Positions 49,293 through 56,257 of a stretch of DNA of 64,000 nucleotides are shown one piece after another (positions within the stretch are counted from its first letter, which is position 1; each line of letters starts with the position of its first letter). The DNA lies in assembly GCF_009712425.2 (NCBI RefSeq), contig NZ_VCJR02000001.1, forward strand, positions 682,001 to 746,000, read 5' to 3'. The position numbers and the translations under genes are program-made. Under the pieces are notes generated by a model. The model saw only the letters and a list, made by a program, of their open reading frames with translations, was not told where the DNA came from and searched no databases. Source of the DNA: Aquisalinus luteolus. GTDB taxonomy: Bacteria; Pseudomonadota; Alphaproteobacteria; Caulobacterales; Parvularculaceae.

Positions 49293-49922
49293 ATGAGCCT
49301 CAGCACCCTCAGAAAAGACCTTGCCGGCTGCCGACACTGCGAAGAAGTCGGCCTGATCCCCGAGGCGCGGCCAATCTTCCAGCTGCCCTCGAAGGCGCGG
49401 ATCGGCCTGTTCAGCCAGGCACCCGGCAATCTCGCTCATATAAATGGCAAACCATTCTATGATCCGTCCGGCGTGCGCCTGCGCGAGTGGATGGGCGTTA
49501 CGGAAGAAGAATTCTACGACTCAGGTCGCATCGCCATTGCGCCGATGGCGTTCTGCTTCCCCGGCTATGACGGCAAGAGCCCGACAGGCAAGGGTGGTGA
49601 CCTGCCGCCACCAAAGGTCTGCGCGGAGATCTGGCGTGCGCGGATCATGAAGGAGATCGAAAGCCGGCTGAAACTCGTCCTGCTCGTCGGCGGCTATTCC
49701 CAGAAATGGCACCTCGGTGACCAGATGGGGCGTACCCTGACGGAAACGGTGAAGATGGCGCGGGACAGGATAATCGATGGGGAAGCGGCGATGGACTCCC
49801 CCATCTATCTACCGCTTCCCCATCCCTCTTGGCGGAACAATGCGTGGCTGCGCAAGAACACTTGGTTCGAAGAGGACGTCGTGCCCTTCATGCAGGACAT
49901 CATCCGCCGAGAGTTCTCGTGA
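49293..49922 (+). CDS. Uracil-DNA glycosylase family protein
   Basis: The 209-residue protein has the UDG-superfamily fold: LAGCRHCEEVGLI, then GLFSQAPGNLAHINGKPFYDPSG for the water-activating/uracil-binding loop region, and the late LPLPHPSWRNNAW loop that contacts DNA. The N-terminal two cysteines CRHC recall the iron-sulfur types, but a four-cysteine cluster is not visible. It may remove uracil or another base from DNA, but this uncharacterised subgroup lacks the exact catalytic motif of UNG. It stands alone; no clear ribosome site precedes the ATG. Confidence 0.85.
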   Translation: MSLSTLRKDLAGCRHCEEVGLIPEARPIFQLPSKARIGLFSQAPGNLAHINGKPFYDPSGVRLREWMGVTEEEFYDSGRIAIAPMAFCFPGYDGKSPTGKGGDLPPPKVCAEIWRARIMKEIESRLKLVLLVGGYSQKWHLGDQMGRTLTETVKMARDRIIDGEAAMDSPIYLPLPHPSWRNNAWLRKNTWFEEDVVPFMQDIIRREFS

Positions 49923-49925
49923 GGC

Positions 49926-51803
49926 TTACCAGCTCTTGCCGATCGTAAAGACCAGCCTCTGGTCCAGCTCATCCTCGCTGGAAAGCCTTGTCGGCTGGTT
50001 GTCGACGAACAGATCGTCGCCGCTTTCCGGGTTATCGATCGCGGCCCTGTCGGCTCGCCAACGCGCGCCATACAGCAGGCCTATATCAACCCCATCGGCT
50101 ATTTGGGCACTCAAGCCGGCGTCGAACGAAACGCCGTAAGTCAGGCCTGAATCGTCATCTTCCAGATGGATCGGGACATTCTGGGAATAGTAGCACGCTC
50201 CGCAGAAAGTATCCTCCTTCGCATCAAGGTCTGCTTCGCGATAGCCGATATTGACCAGTGGGCGGGCAAAGGTATTCACCTTGCCGAACTTGCGCCCGAA
50301 GAACGGACCGACTTCAACACCGGCATAACGTTCCGTCAGGTCCTGAAGGCCGAATGTGTAAATATCCGGGTAGGTCGGTGTCGTGATCCGGAACTCGTGT
50401 TCCGTGCCGGAATAATCAAAGAAAAAGCCGTGATAGCAGCCCCAATACCAGTCCGGCGAAATGCCGTGATAAACCTTGCGCCCGGCGGCGAAGCGGAAGT
50501 TTTCATAATCTGTATGCGTCTCGACATCCGATCCGGCGCTGCCATAGAACAGTCCCGTGGCGTCGTCATCGGCAAAGTCGAAATAGACGACACCTGTGCC
50601 GTTACCACCGGCGGGAACACTGCCAAAGGATGACCCTTCAGCTTCAGTGTAGGACAATGAAGCGGCAAAGGCGCTCGCCCGGCCACGCCATTTTCGTTGC
50701 ATGTATGAGAACCGCTCAAATTCATCCCTGGGGGTGAAAACAGTACCGCCCAGATAGGCCCCGCCGAATGTGGTGCCCGAAAGATGGTCGTCGGTTTCCG
50801 CCACGAACTGTTCATCGTCCGCTGTCACCTCGACGCCGTAGCCAGCCTGGGGCAGGCTTGTCTGCGACGCGCCGACAAAGAACCACAGCCTGTCCTTGAC
50901 GATAGGCCCACCGAGGGTTTTGTCGTAGGCGTCTTCCGGTGAGTCAGTTCCCGGAAGAGCGCCCTGTACGTCTGACGTATCGAGACCATCATACCATTGG
51001 CCTCCGTCGGACTTTTCTCCAGAAGCGGTGGGACGCTCTTTGCCGACGTCTTCATCCTCGACGATCAATCCGCCAGTATCGCTGCCGACAAACCGTGCAC
51101 CGTCCCGGCTTGAAACCGCGCCCTTTTCCGCCGCATAGAGATTCGCATCGGCATAGGCTGCGTCGACCGGCTCACCATCGTCGGCATCTTTGCTTTTGCC
51201 GGTAGAGTGAGGCGGATAAGAACCATCTGACCCTTCGCGCTCTTCCGTGAAACTCCTGATCACGAAATTGTCTTCGACAGCAGCCTCATCCATCGGTTCG
51301 GAAAAAGTCAGTACAAAAGACGTGCCGGGATCAACTCCGTCTGCATTCCGCGCCGGGCTTGTCCTGGCGACCTCGGGAAGATCCCCTGGCTGATGATCCG
51401 GAGCATACGCATCTCTCACCTCATCAAGCGTCTGGTTTGCTTCTGCACTGAGTTTTTCCCGGTCAAAACCGAAATAGACAATATTCGCGTCTCCGGCGGG
51501 TTGCCCACCTGGACTGTCTTCGGCCTTTGTTGTCTGCACTGGCTTGGGAAAATTCTGGAACCTGTTCAGCTGATCGGCAGTTGGCTTGCTTTCCATTCGG
51601 ACTTTCAGTTCCCGGTAGGTCTGTGCGTATGCTTGGGTGGAGGCAGCTGCCTGCCCGTCCGCGAGCATCATCCCTGTCAATCTGTCTTCAAGCTGGGTTA
51701 CACTAAGCGAGTCCATTGCCTGGGCGTGGGCGGGCGTCAAGACAACAGGAATAGCGCCACAGATGGCAATGGCGGCACATGCCGCGAGTAATGTACGTTT
51801 CAT
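49926..51803 (-). CDS. Outer-membrane beta-barrel protein with mosaic N-terminal half
   Basis: I do not recognise this 625-residue protein as one family. A Sec signal ends AHA (residue 26). Residues 108-129 resemble the first strand and helix of an OmpA-like domain (VYFGFDREKLSAEANQTLDEV), residues 144-183 a bacterial Ig-like domain start (GTSFVLTFSEPMDE), and residues 296-313 a TonB-receptor (Oar-like) segment (TLGGPIVKDRLWFFVG). Residues about 320-625 alternate like a beta-barrel and end in W, as outer-membrane barrels do. None of the three N-terminal domains is complete. The gene lies 92 bp downstream of a LuxR-type regulator on the same strand. Confidence 0.75.
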   Translation of the reverse strand: MKRTLLAACAAIAICGAIPVVLTPAHAQAMDSLSVTQLEDRLTGMMLADGQAAASTQAYAQTYRELKVRMESKPTADQLNRFQNFPKPVQTTKAEDSPGGQPAGDANIVYFGFDREKLSAEANQTLDEVRDAYAPDHQPGDLPEVARTSPARNADGVDPGTSFVLTFSEPMDEAAVEDNFVIRSFTEEREGSDGSYPPHSTGKSKDADDGEPVDAAYADANLYAAEKGAVSSRDGARFVGSDTGGLIVEDEDVGKERPTASGEKSDGGQWYDGLDTSDVQGALPGTDSPEDAYDKTLGGPIVKDRLWFFVGASQTSLPQAGYGVEVTADDEQFVAETDDHLSGTTFGGAYLGGTVFTPRDEFERFSYMQRKWRGRASAFAASLSYTEAEGSSFGSVPAGGNGTGVVYFDFADDDATGLFYGSAGSDVETHTDYENFRFAAGRKVYHGISPDWYWGCYHGFFFDYSGTEHEFRITTPTYPDIYTFGLQDLTERYAGVEVGPFFGRKFGKVNTFARPLVNIGYREADLDAKEDTFCGACYYSQNVPIHLEDDDSGLTYGVSFDAGLSAQIADGVDIGLLYGARWRADRAAIDNPESGDDLFVDNQPTRLSSEDELDQRLVFTIGKSW

Positions 51804-51895
51804 GGGTTCTCTCCTCTTCGAAAGTTGTGAACGAGGAGGAGGGTGCCGCTATGCCCGGCACTCCACATGATGCAATAGGACTAGGTGGGCCTAAA

Positions 51896-52342
51896 TTATC
51901 CGGCAAGGAGCATTTTGATCAGGTCGACCTGCCCACCGGCACCGGTCTTGTCGAGCAGGTTCTGCATGTGTACCCGTGCGGTATTCACCGAAATGCCGGT
52001 GCGGCGGGCATGGTCGGGCACGGAAAAGCCGCCGGCAAGGCTGACCAGCAGCTTTTTCTCCGACACAGTCAGGTTATAACGTTGTGAAAAGGCATGATAA
52101 TCCGTCAATTCCCCCGGTGCGGCGTGGCGCATTCGGTCGGTCAGTGCTTTGACCGTTTCTTCCGGCAGGTGCTGCGCGATTTCCCGCATCCGCTGCTGCC
52201 AGATAGGCACGTCCCCCAGCCGTTCGCCGTCGAATTCGAATAGCTGGGCATAGGTCAGGAACGCCTCCACGGTGTCCGTTTCGTCATTCTCATCGTCATT
52301 TCTGTCCTGCTCTTTGGCCATTTTCTCTCCGGTGGTCATCAT
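51896..52342 (-). CDS. LuxR-type HTH regulator, stand-alone
   Basis: The 148-residue protein has a C-terminal LuxR/GerE-type HTH (YNLTVSEKKLLVSLAGGFSV, then ARRTGISVNTARVHMQNLLDKTG). Its N-terminal 80 residues are acidic and match no receiver or autoinducer domain that I can identify, so its signal input is unclear. Starts at 52342, 52339 and 52321 are possible; the last has the ribosome site ggagag. It is upstream of the mosaic outer-membrane gene and divergent to the HSL-like gene, with 87 bp between. Confidence 0.88.
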   Translation of the reverse strand: MMTTGEKMAKEQDRNDDENDETDTVEAFLTYAQLFEFDGERLGDVPIWQQRMREIAQHLPEETVKALTDRMRHAAPGELTDYHAFSQRYNLTVSEKKLLVSLAGGFSVPDHARRTGISVNTARVHMQNLLDKTGAGGQVDLIKMLLAG

Positions 52343-52429
52343 GCCTTGCCCGGGCAGTCCTGTGAAGCATTCAGGTTTTCCTGATTTATGCTATACTCTG
52401 CAGGCAAATTTCAGGGGCGGGAGAGGCTC

Positions 52430-53485
52430 ATGACGGCAGGAACCTATACCGAACGCATGCATCCGGCAGCCCGTCTTTCGGCGCTCGAGGCTGGCAGGCT
52501 CGCTCAATTCGTCCGCTCCGAGGCGGGGGTGATTGGACGTCTCGCTGATCACACCCTGGCCCGTTTTGAGAACATGCTGATCGAATTCGTTTTCATCAGT
52601 CGGCTGAGGAAGACGTTTCGCGACTTCGCCGATCCGTCAAAACCGACCAAAAACATGATGGACGACCTGCGCCAGCAACAGAGCGAGGGCAAGATGGCCG
52701 GCCTGTCCATGATGGCCTCGGCTGACGGCACGCCGCATATCGATACCGATGAGACCTCCAGCGCCGATGTCTGGCGGCTGAGCCGTCAGGGCGGCGAACG
52801 CGTCCTCTTCTACGTGCCCTGCGGTGGCTTCATCCTGCCCCCATCGCCGAAACAGCTGTCGACGGCTGAACGCCTCGCCAGTGCCTGCGACAGCCGCCTT
52901 GTCATCGGCCGCCACAGGCTGGCGCCGGAACATCCGTTCCCGGCGGCGATCCACGATATCGCCGATCATTACGAGGCGCTGCTGTCCGAGGGTCACCATC
53001 CCGGCAACATCATCGCCGGTGGTGACACCTCCGGTGCGGCCATCATGCTCGGTGCCCTGATGGAATTGCGCCGCCGCGGTGTGACCATGCCGGCGGGGGC
53101 GTTGCTGTTCTCGCCTTGGGCGGATCTTTCCCTGTCCGGCTGGTCCTACATCACTGGCAGCGTCTCCGCGACGAGCCCGTACCGAATGGAAATCGCTGCC
53201 TTCTGCGCGCGTCTGTACCTGCAGGATACGCTGCCGACAGATCCGATGGCCTCGCCAGTTTATGGCGAAATAAAGGGATTACCGCCCATGGCGATCCATT
53301 CCAGCCGGTATGACATTCGCTTCGATGATGCCCTGCGGCTGGTGGAAAAGGCAGAAAAGGCCGGTGTGCCGTGTCGCATCAATTACTGGGACTCGCCGCG
53401 CCACCATCTCGAAAGGTTCAAGTCCCGCGATGCCGACAAGTCTTTCGAACTTGCTGCCGTCTTCGTCGAGGAGGTGATGGCCTAG
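52430..53485 (+). CDS. Alpha/beta-hydrolase fold protein, HSL-like, altered active site
   Basis: The 351-residue protein resembles the hormone-sensitive-lipase group: FYVPCGGFILPPS in place of the oxyanion HGGGF, HRLAPEHPFPAAIHDIADHYEALL, and SRYDIRFDDALRL. The expected nucleophile motif GDSAGG reads GDTSGA at residues 198-203, so the serine position is T200 with S201 beside it. The oxyanion histidine is replaced by cysteine. A histidine pair near the C-terminus (RHHLERF) keeps the third catalytic site. It may be non-catalytic or use a shifted serine. The start at 52430 has the site gggagagg. Confidence 0.82.
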   Translation: MTAGTYTERMHPAARLSALEAGRLAQFVRSEAGVIGRLADHTLARFENMLIEFVFISRLRKTFRDFADPSKPTKNMMDDLRQQQSEGKMAGLSMMASADGTPHIDTDETSSADVWRLSRQGGERVLFYVPCGGFILPPSPKQLSTAERLASACDSRLVIGRHRLAPEHPFPAAIHDIADHYEALLSEGHHPGNIIAGGDTSGAAIMLGALMELRRRGVTMPAGALLFSPWADLSLSGWSYITGSVSATSPYRMEIAAFCARLYLQDTLPTDPMASPVYGEIKGLPPMAIHSSRYDIRFDDALRLVEKAEKAGVPCRINYWDSPRHHLERFKSRDADKSFELAAVFVEEVMA

Positions 53486-54756
53486 CGTTCTTCCGTGGGG
53501 AGTGGCGTTGCCATGATAAGCACCGGCTTGCGCGGACTTTCAGGTGCGCTGCCATCCTCCGGGAAGCTCGGCCATTGCGAATTGGCGATGAAAGCGAACT
53601 GACCGTCCCTGACAAACCCCAGTGTCGGATCGTCGAATTCGGGCATGCCTGTCGCCAGTGGCGTGACAGTTTCTATGGCGGATCCATTCTCTGTCAGGGA
53701 GAGATGCAGCACGCCATGGGGGCGTGCGCCGTTACGGATGGCGACCAGCCCGCCATTTCCATCAGCTGTCAGGCCATCGATGCCGATCAGCGATGCGTTG
53801 TCCGTCATCAGGCGTAATGCGGTGCCTGTCGATAGATCAACGCGCCATATGCCGGTCGCATAATCCGCCGCATACAGAAAGCTGTGACTGACCGTGATAC
53901 CCTGCAGGGAGGCGAATGTGCCGGGGGCGACAACAGTCGTGAGCTCGCCAGTCTCGATATCCGCCTTGTAGATCGCACCGCCTGCCTGATCGGTGAAATA
54001 AACGATATCCTCGTCATGCGCGAGATCGGTGATCTGGGCATTGTTGGCAGGGGCCTCGAAGCGGTAAATAACCTGCTCTGTCTGCGGATCGATCGCCAGT
54101 AGGACAGTGCCTGCCTTGCGATGGCTTGCGGCTGTCTGCGGCACGATGGCCGTCGCCGCCCAGATCAGGCCATCCGCAGCAACGATCTCGAAAACACTGC
54201 CGATAGACTTGTCCTCCAGAAGGTTTTCCAGTGTATCATCGTCAAGGCGATAAAGGCCGGGCTGTGCAATGCCGCTGACATACCAGGTGCTGTCGACTTT
54301 CGCGACGCTTTCGATCAGTATGTCGAGGTAGGGGATGGTCACCAGCGCTTCCACTGTGCCGGTCGGGGCTCCATTCTCTTCAATCAACTGAAGCAGCACA
54401 GAAAGGTTATTACGCGCGTCTTCCGGCATTGCGGCGGCTAGGGCGCTGGTCGGATAGGAGAGGCCGAGACGATTGACCTCAGTCAACCATTTCTCGGCAG
54501 TATCCATGTCACCCATCCGGGCACTGAGGATTGCCAGGTTGACGAGAATGCTGCCATGACCGGGTTGATGGAAAAGGGCTGCCTCAAGGGCAGAAATGGC
54601 GGAAGGGGTATCGCCAGCATCGATGAAACCTGCCGCTGCCTGTCTGTGTTCCAGTGCCGCTTCATAGTGTTGTGCGGGTGTCAGGCTCGCGCTCTCCTGC
54701 GCAAGGGCACTCGTCCCGCCCCATAAAGCGAAGAGAAATATCAGGCAAAGATGCAT
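53482..54756 (-). CDS. Secreted TPR plus beta-propeller (SMP-30/NHL-like) protein
   Basis: No exact family is recognised. The 424-residue protein starts at the ATG of MHLCLIFLFALWGG (ribosome site gggag) with a signal ending ALA near residue 20. TPR-like helices (QHYEAALEHRQAAAGFIDAGD, SILVNLAILSARMGDMDTAEKW) fill residues about 28-90. From about 120 on, repeats such as LYRLDDDTL, AIDPQTEQVIYRF, IYKADIETGELTTVV and IWRVDLSTGTAL fit a six-bladed propeller. Such proteins often sense or bind in the periplasm. It is convergent to the HSL-like gene with a four-base overlap. Confidence 0.75.
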   Translation of the reverse strand: MHLCLIFLFALWGGTSALAQESASLTPAQHYEAALEHRQAAAGFIDAGDTPSAISALEAALFHQPGHGSILVNLAILSARMGDMDTAEKWLTEVNRLGLSYPTSALAAAMPEDARNNLSVLLQLIEENGAPTGTVEALVTIPYLDILIESVAKVDSTWYVSGIAQPGLYRLDDDTLENLLEDKSIGSVFEIVAADGLIWAATAIVPQTAASHRKAGTVLLAIDPQTEQVIYRFEAPANNAQITDLAHDEDIVYFTDQAGGAIYKADIETGELTTVVAPGTFASLQGITVSHSFLYAADYATGIWRVDLSTGTALRLMTDNASLIGIDGLTADGNGGLVAIRNGARPHGVLHLSLTENGSAIETVTPLATGMPEFDDPTLGFVRDGQFAFIANSQWPSFPEDGSAPESPRKPVLIMATPLPTEER

Positions 54757-54813
54757 CGGCTTGCTCCCGGCATTCCAGCATTTGCTGACCAACCGGGTAC
54801 GTGCCGTTGCAGG

Positions 54814-55944
54814 CTAGCGCTTGTGGTTCAGCCAGTCGTCGATACGGGCATAGATGATGTACAGCACCGCGATCACGATGATGACGCCGATGGCGACTTG
54901 GAAGGCGAGGGTATAATCCTCCCGCGTGATCTCCGGGTCGGTCACTGGCGGCGTGCCGACTTCCGTTCCCGTGCCGGTATCATCACCAGCCGTGTCGTCG
55001 CTCGCAACGTCATCGGTCGCGCCGGTCGAACCGTCCGTCGACGTATCACTGGAGGTATCGTCAGTACTGTCTTCGGTCGCGTCATCAGTATCGGTGTCAT
55101 CAGTCCCGGTATCGTCAGCTGGCTCACCATCGGCTGGCTCGTCCGTCGAACTATCCTCTTCGCCGGGGGCATCGGTCGTCGTGCCGCTATCGGTATCAGT
55201 CCCTGTATCCGTGCCAGTGTCGCCGGTCGTATCACCGTCGTCACCGCTATCGGGTTCGCCGTCTTCGCTACCTTCCTCGTCCTTGTCGCGGTTCATCCAT
55301 GCCGCACCGGCACTGGCTGCGCCGCCCGCGCCGGCAACCACCGCGCCCTCCATGGTCCGCGAGGAGCCGATATTCTTGCGCCGGGGTGAATTCTCCTCCG
55401 GTGTGACGCGGCTGGAATCCTCGTCAGTATCGCCCAGCTCGTTGCTGTCCATCGGCTGCAGGAACAGTGCTTTCTCGGCAGCGCGGCGATTTACGAGGCC
55501 CTGCACGACCTGTTTCTGGCCGTTCACGGTCGCCTTGTTCCACCAGGTGATGGCATCTGCTGCTTCGGTGATCTTCCCCTGGTTGAAGAATTTCAGGGCA
55601 CTCGACCCGCGAAAAGCGCTGACGCCGATATTGTAGGACAGCGATACGAAGGCATCGAACTGGTTCTGGTTGATGTCGCGTTTGAGGCCGCCCGAGACAC
55701 CTTCCTCGAAGCGCTGCAACTCGTCGCGCAGCAGCTCCTCGGCATAGCCCTGGCTGATGCGCACGGGCTGGCCGCCATTGGCCGCGACGGCGGCAGCAAC
55801 GCTGTCATAGCGCCTGCCGTCTATGCTGATCGGACCGATATGGCCGTAGCCAATGGTCCAGATACCGGCCACATCCTTGTAGGCATCGAGGCGAATGCCC
55901 TCGAAATGCTTGATCAGGTCGATCCCAGTTTGCGAAGCCCTCAT
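54814..55944 (-). CDS. GH24 lysozyme domain with acidic linker and C-terminal membrane anchor
   Basis: The 376-residue protein begins with a phage-type lysozyme domain (GH24, residues about 1-160). The E15-D24-T30 catalytic triad appears in HFEGIRLDAYKD and WTIGYGH. There is no N-terminal signal peptide. Residues about 215-340 form a very acidic Asp/Thr/Ser/Gly-rich linker, and residues about 345-367 a hydrophobic helix followed by ARIDDWLNHKR. The start at 55944 has the site ggaagggg; an ATG seven codons earlier is possible. No phage genes are nearby. It would act on peptidoglycan if exported by the C-terminal segment, which is inference. Confidence 0.85.
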   Translation of the reverse strand: MRASQTGIDLIKHFEGIRLDAYKDVAGIWTIGYGHIGPISIDGRRYDSVAAAVAANGGQPVRISQGYAEELLRDELQRFEEGVSGGLKRDINQNQFDAFVSLSYNIGVSAFRGSSALKFFNQGKITEAADAITWWNKATVNGQKQVVQGLVNRRAAEKALFLQPMDSNELGDTDEDSSRVTPEENSPRRKNIGSSRTMEGAVVAGAGGAASAGAAWMNRDKDEEGSEDGEPDSGDDGDTTGDTGTDTGTDTDSGTTTDAPGEEDSSTDEPADGEPADDTGTDDTDTDDATEDSTDDTSSDTSTDGSTGATDDVASDDTAGDDTGTGTEVGTPPVTDPEITREDYTLAFQVAIGVIIVIAVLYIIYARIDDWLNHKR

Positions 55945-56257
55945 ACCATCCCCTTCCGGCGCCATTTGAGGCTAACCGGCCTTTCGCTGCCTGCAGTCTA
56001 GACCAGCCTGTGTTGCCCAACAATGGCGGCGTTAACTTTTTGTTCAATGCTACAAACGCCTGAGACGGGGAAAAGATCGCAAACCGGGCCTGATTTTTGC
56101 TTCTGTCCCAACCAGTTGGCGAAATGACACGGAAGAGTCTCTTTTTCGTCACACAAATTTTATGCAATGGGGAAGGTCTCGCCTTGCTGAATCAGGCCGT
56201 TTTGCCTATGACGCACATGCATTGCCATGGGTCGGGACATCATTCAGGGAGTACAGG

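Follow-up and report, generated by a model that had tools for sequence, protein, structure and literature searches.

The locus of Aquisalinus luteolus studied here raises the question of whether one predicted outer-membrane protein was put together from pieces of OmpA-like, Ig-like and Oar-type proteins or belongs to a new family in which any likeness of the pieces to other families is accidental, the two options offered by a preliminary description made from the letters of the DNA. Positions are those of the window, that is, the whole stretch of 64,000 nucleotides analysed (contig NZ_VCJR02000001.1, positions 682,001 to 746,000). The second option came closer, with the qualification that the Ig-like (Big_5) piece is real and the Oar-type piece probably so, whereas the OmpA-like one is indistinguishable from chance. 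The reading preferred here, with a probability of about 0.6, is that of a genus-restricted outer-membrane barrel protein carrying an eroding Ig-like stub and linker, and not of a recent assembly of three domains.

As previously described, a single ORF of 625 aa spans exactly positions 49926-51803 of the minus strand in the ORF list of the window. It is flanked by a gene at 49293-49922, which we take to be of the uracil-DNA-glycosylase type, and by a LuxR-type regulator at 51896-52342. It is a real gene, with a putative signal peptide (basic start, hydrophobic core and AHAQ end, as read by eye) and purifying selection. The features of the locus are the following:

49926-51803, minus strand: whole ORF, a lineage-restricted predicted outer-membrane protein with a full-length A. 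flavus orthologue (62% identity over aligned columns)
51720-51803, minus strand: putative signal peptide, residues 1-28, MKRTLLAACAAIAICGAIPVVLTPAHAQ, read by eye from the sequence
51534-51716, minus strand: conserved N-terminal segment with predicted helices, residues 30-90 (76% identity to A. flavus; Nei-Gojobori dN/dS 0.10)
51363-51536, minus strand: residues 90-147, without counterpart in the A. flavus orthologue in the alignments
51414-51482, minus strand: OmpA/Pal-like stretch, residues 108-130, not significant
51252-51377, minus strand: Big_5 Ig-like stub, residues 143-184, matching profile positions 5-46 of 105
50955-51245, minus strand: fast-evolving linker, acidic and Ser/Gly-rich, residues 187-283, with gaps against A. 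flavus (Nei-Gojobori dN/dS about 0.56 for residues 191-316, where the alignment is uncertain)
50856-50954, minus strand: Oar-like hairpin, residues 284-316, including YDKTLGGPIVKDRLWFFVG
49929-50855, minus strand: conserved C-terminal half, a predicted barrel, residues 317-625 (71% identity to A. flavus; Nei-Gojobori dN/dS 0.15; amphipathic pattern)
51896-52342, minus strand: small LuxR-type regulator, a neighbour syntenic in A. flavus (GerE, Pfam E=1.3e-5)
52388-53485, plus strand: Abhydrolase_3 esterase, a neighbour syntenic in A. flavus (Pfam E=1.5e-32)

A single full-length relative of the protein was identified, in Aquisalinus flavus (NZ_CP042288.1, L002:5001-6563, 520 aa). This was the sole match in a peptide-pattern scan of 84,980 species and again in a whole-genome search of 62 genomes of the family, among them G004, which judging from position is in all likelihood the same strain. 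No further relative was identified by whole-genome search among 385 genomes of the class, nor in plasmids or viral contigs, and literature searches returned nothing on this protein. A 323-aa candidate from another genome (G026, L045) was discarded, having the look of a chance ORF. Across its full length the protein fits no single known family, and it forms with its orthologue a two-member family of its own.

The A. flavus orthologue, itself uncharacterised, occupies the same locus with the same regulator and esterase as neighbours, and has in common the putative signal peptide, the N-terminal segment and the C-terminal half. It lacks residues 90-147, 208-228 and 270-297. Both ends are conserved and the linker changes fast; saturation of synonymous sites affects the Big_5 stretch. 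For both the Oar-like and the OmpA-like piece, the corresponding part of this only orthologue is either missing or diverged, the OmpA-like one falling within residues 90-147. In the A. flavus copy Pfam detects neither Big_5 nor OMP_b-brl_4 (Oar), and none of the three fragments is matched. The edges of the 174-bp segment were inspected for microhomology and showed no clear pattern either way. Internal duplication was rejected, the single repeat found within the gene (a 16-nt pair, VYFDF/VYFGF, 88% identical) being too short to mean anything.

Each segment was also searched separately, and the Ig-like piece is the one solid fragment among the three. Its match to Big_5 (PF13205) has an E-value of 4.1e-6 in the Pfam scan of the whole protein and of 1.4e-7 when the segment is scanned alone, and its score of 27.9 bits exceeds the gathering cut-off of 23.6. 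Judged by this match the fragment is genuine and, as had been claimed, incomplete: it covers 42 of 105 profile positions, and the second half of the domain is missing from the 625-aa protein. Residues 143-147 (profile positions 5-9) contribute 5.6 bits (32.3 against 26.7) and fall inside the segment missing from A. flavus. Since the match spans the edge of the gap, the more economical event is a deletion in A. flavus rather than an insertion in A. luteolus, and A. flavus would most simply have lost these residues. That this choice between loss and gain concerns few residues and one relative counts against the preferred reading.

The Oar-type fragment is probably real at the sequence level, although as one hairpin rather than as a domain. 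Residues 296-320, scanned alone with Pfam, match OMP_b-brl_4 (PF25183) at positions 46-70 of 838 (E=4.6e-4), that is, over 25 positions and with 19.1 bits against a family cut-off of 30, well short of a large barrel. A profile of nine Oar-type proteins from the same family gave 20.0 bits at residues 284-316, a score somewhat flattered by the choice of these proteins partly for their resemblance to the query; none of 5000 shuffles scored as high, the best values being 4.8 bits in 2000 shuffles and 4.6 in the 5000 more. The match is limited to 22-33 residues. Profile-profile comparison with the Oar proteins (hhalign) aligned 22 columns with a probability of 41%, with nothing convincing elsewhere and nothing above chance in the C-terminal half, and no Plug match was identified by Pfam in the 625 aa. 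In TonB receptors GGPI.KD.LFFF is a strand-turn-strand unit that opens the barrel, so on the simplest reading the stretch would be a hairpin belonging to the barrel of this protein itself, most likely the first, and not a domain. The likeness to Oar-type TonB receptors and OMP_b-brl_4 is a single hairpin stretch, LGGPIVKDRLWFF, whereas the 625-aa protein has no plug, shows no match to the remainder of the receptor barrel and is about half as long.

The OmpA-like fragment did not hold up. The OmpA domain (PF00691) had no Pfam match in the whole protein or in the segment scan, and Pal was reached with E=0.13 in NCBIfam and E=0.8 in PDB. Against a profile built from 34 OmpA domains of relatives, 23 residues scored 3.5 bits, a value that 8 of 5000 shuffles of the whole protein also reached; the 58-residue segment alone scored 8.8 bits, which is not fairly compared with shuffles of the whole protein. 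These 23 residues resemble the first strand and helix of the peptidoglycan-binding OmpA/Pal domain without significance, whereas the remainder of this domain of about 98 positions is missing. Once many families are allowed for, such scores are not evidence of homology, and the stretch is probably a chance resemblance within the linker. A match of another kind, to phrog_7897 (PHROG, unknown function; E=8.6e-4), covers residues 70-134 (window 51402-51596) and overlaps both the last part of the helical segment and the OmpA-like stretch.

That a barrel follows these stretches is plausible from several features of the sequence. The C-terminal half of the A. flavus copy matches OMP_b-brl (E=0.0017), whereas the A. 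luteolus copy has no such match. Alternating hydrophobicity is raised in both (z 2.0 in A. luteolus, 3.2 in A. flavus), the controls giving 3.0 for an OmpA barrel and at most 0.5 for soluble neighbours; an Oar control is only weakly distinct (1.6), so the test is blunt. The last residue of the C-terminus, LVFTIGKSW, is aromatic. Neither the whole protein (mean pLDDT 29.8) nor the C-terminal half (26.4) could be usefully modelled with AlphaFold, so that these predictions support neither the barrel nor a fold of the stub, which speaks against the preferred reading and leaves the barrel to be argued from sequence. The poor models are attributed to the lack of relatives; a block with pLDDT of 50-68 appears only in the N-terminal helices (residues 35-55, 57-70 and 76-83). 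A PDB profile search with the C-terminal half returned nothing better than weak hits on Rab GTPases and one channel, which were taken as chance.

Under the preferred reading, the protein would be exported by means of its signal peptide; the conserved helices would lie in the periplasm, followed by a largely disordered linker, and the C-terminal half would form a barrel of some 12-14 strands in the outer membrane, where the protein would probably act as a channel or surface protein under control of the neighbouring LuxR-type regulator. The Big_5 stub would be the remnant of a domain that lost its second half, with erosion continuing in A. flavus. A further point against this reading is that three resemblances to outer-envelope proteins within a single linker are slightly unexpected if due to chance. 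An orphan outer-membrane protein of this kind would be a modest example of fast divergence of envelope proteins within a genus; a true patchwork would mean that short domain fragments are reused in bacterial surface proteins.

Such a mosaic, in which illegitimate recombination would have brought OmpA-, Big_5- and Oar-type gene fragments one by one into a barrel protein's linker, is unlikely. It would account for Big_5 and Oar matches above chance, for pieces lying in or beside an indel-rich linker and for each piece covering the start of its profile, but the own genome offers no donor at the DNA level (a search with the whole gene at E<=1e-3 returned only itself, and recent copying within the genome was rejected on this result), its protein matches are weak (E=0.84 for the OmpA segment, 0.0086 for Oar and 0.94 for Big_5), and the OmpA piece is not significant. 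The patchwork is left with one firmly supported fragment, no donor and no outgroup. The most speculative idea, and the least probable considered here, is that the linker would serve as a landing site for short in-frame fragments of other envelope-protein genes, which would be taken up and afterwards lost again, the patchwork differing in each species.

Ranked below the mosaic is a degenerate Oar-type TonB receptor that would have lost the plug and most of the barrel, the Ig-like stub being its N-terminal domain and the GGPIVKDRLWFF stretch the start of its barrel. The order of Ig-like piece and Oar hairpin recalls Oar proteins, and sister species have TonB receptors at this locus; these, however, are co-oriented with the glycosylase-type gene, which the 625-aa gene opposes, and the brevity of the profile-profile match, the silence of the C-terminal half and the missing Plug match argue in the same direction. 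Less probable again is an orphan protein in which the three resemblances all arose by chance or through convergence of strand and turn patterns. The low complexity of the linker and an A. flavus copy that matches none of the three would fit, but the Big_5 match (E=4e-6) lies above a curated cut-off and the Oar score exceeds all 5000 shuffles.

Three further species of the genus (L082, L084 and L085) have a TonB-receptor-like protein of 729-735 aa, on two of which Pfam was run, next to the glycosylase-type gene, in the place taken in A. luteolus and A. flavus by the barrel protein, the LuxR-type regulator and the esterase (window 49926-53485). A fourth species (G005, L083:1360-3534) has the receptor interrupted by one in-frame TAG at 2122-2124, with separate ORFs for plug and barrel, the interruption being either a broken gene or a sequencing error. 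Beyond the esterase, the window contains a TPR and propeller-like protein (53482-54792), not found there in A. flavus, followed by a phage-type lysozyme (54814-55965) that carries a long tail rich in Asp, Thr and Gly as well as a hydrophobic segment at the C-terminus. Other species of the genus also have the lysozyme, with a tail that varies.
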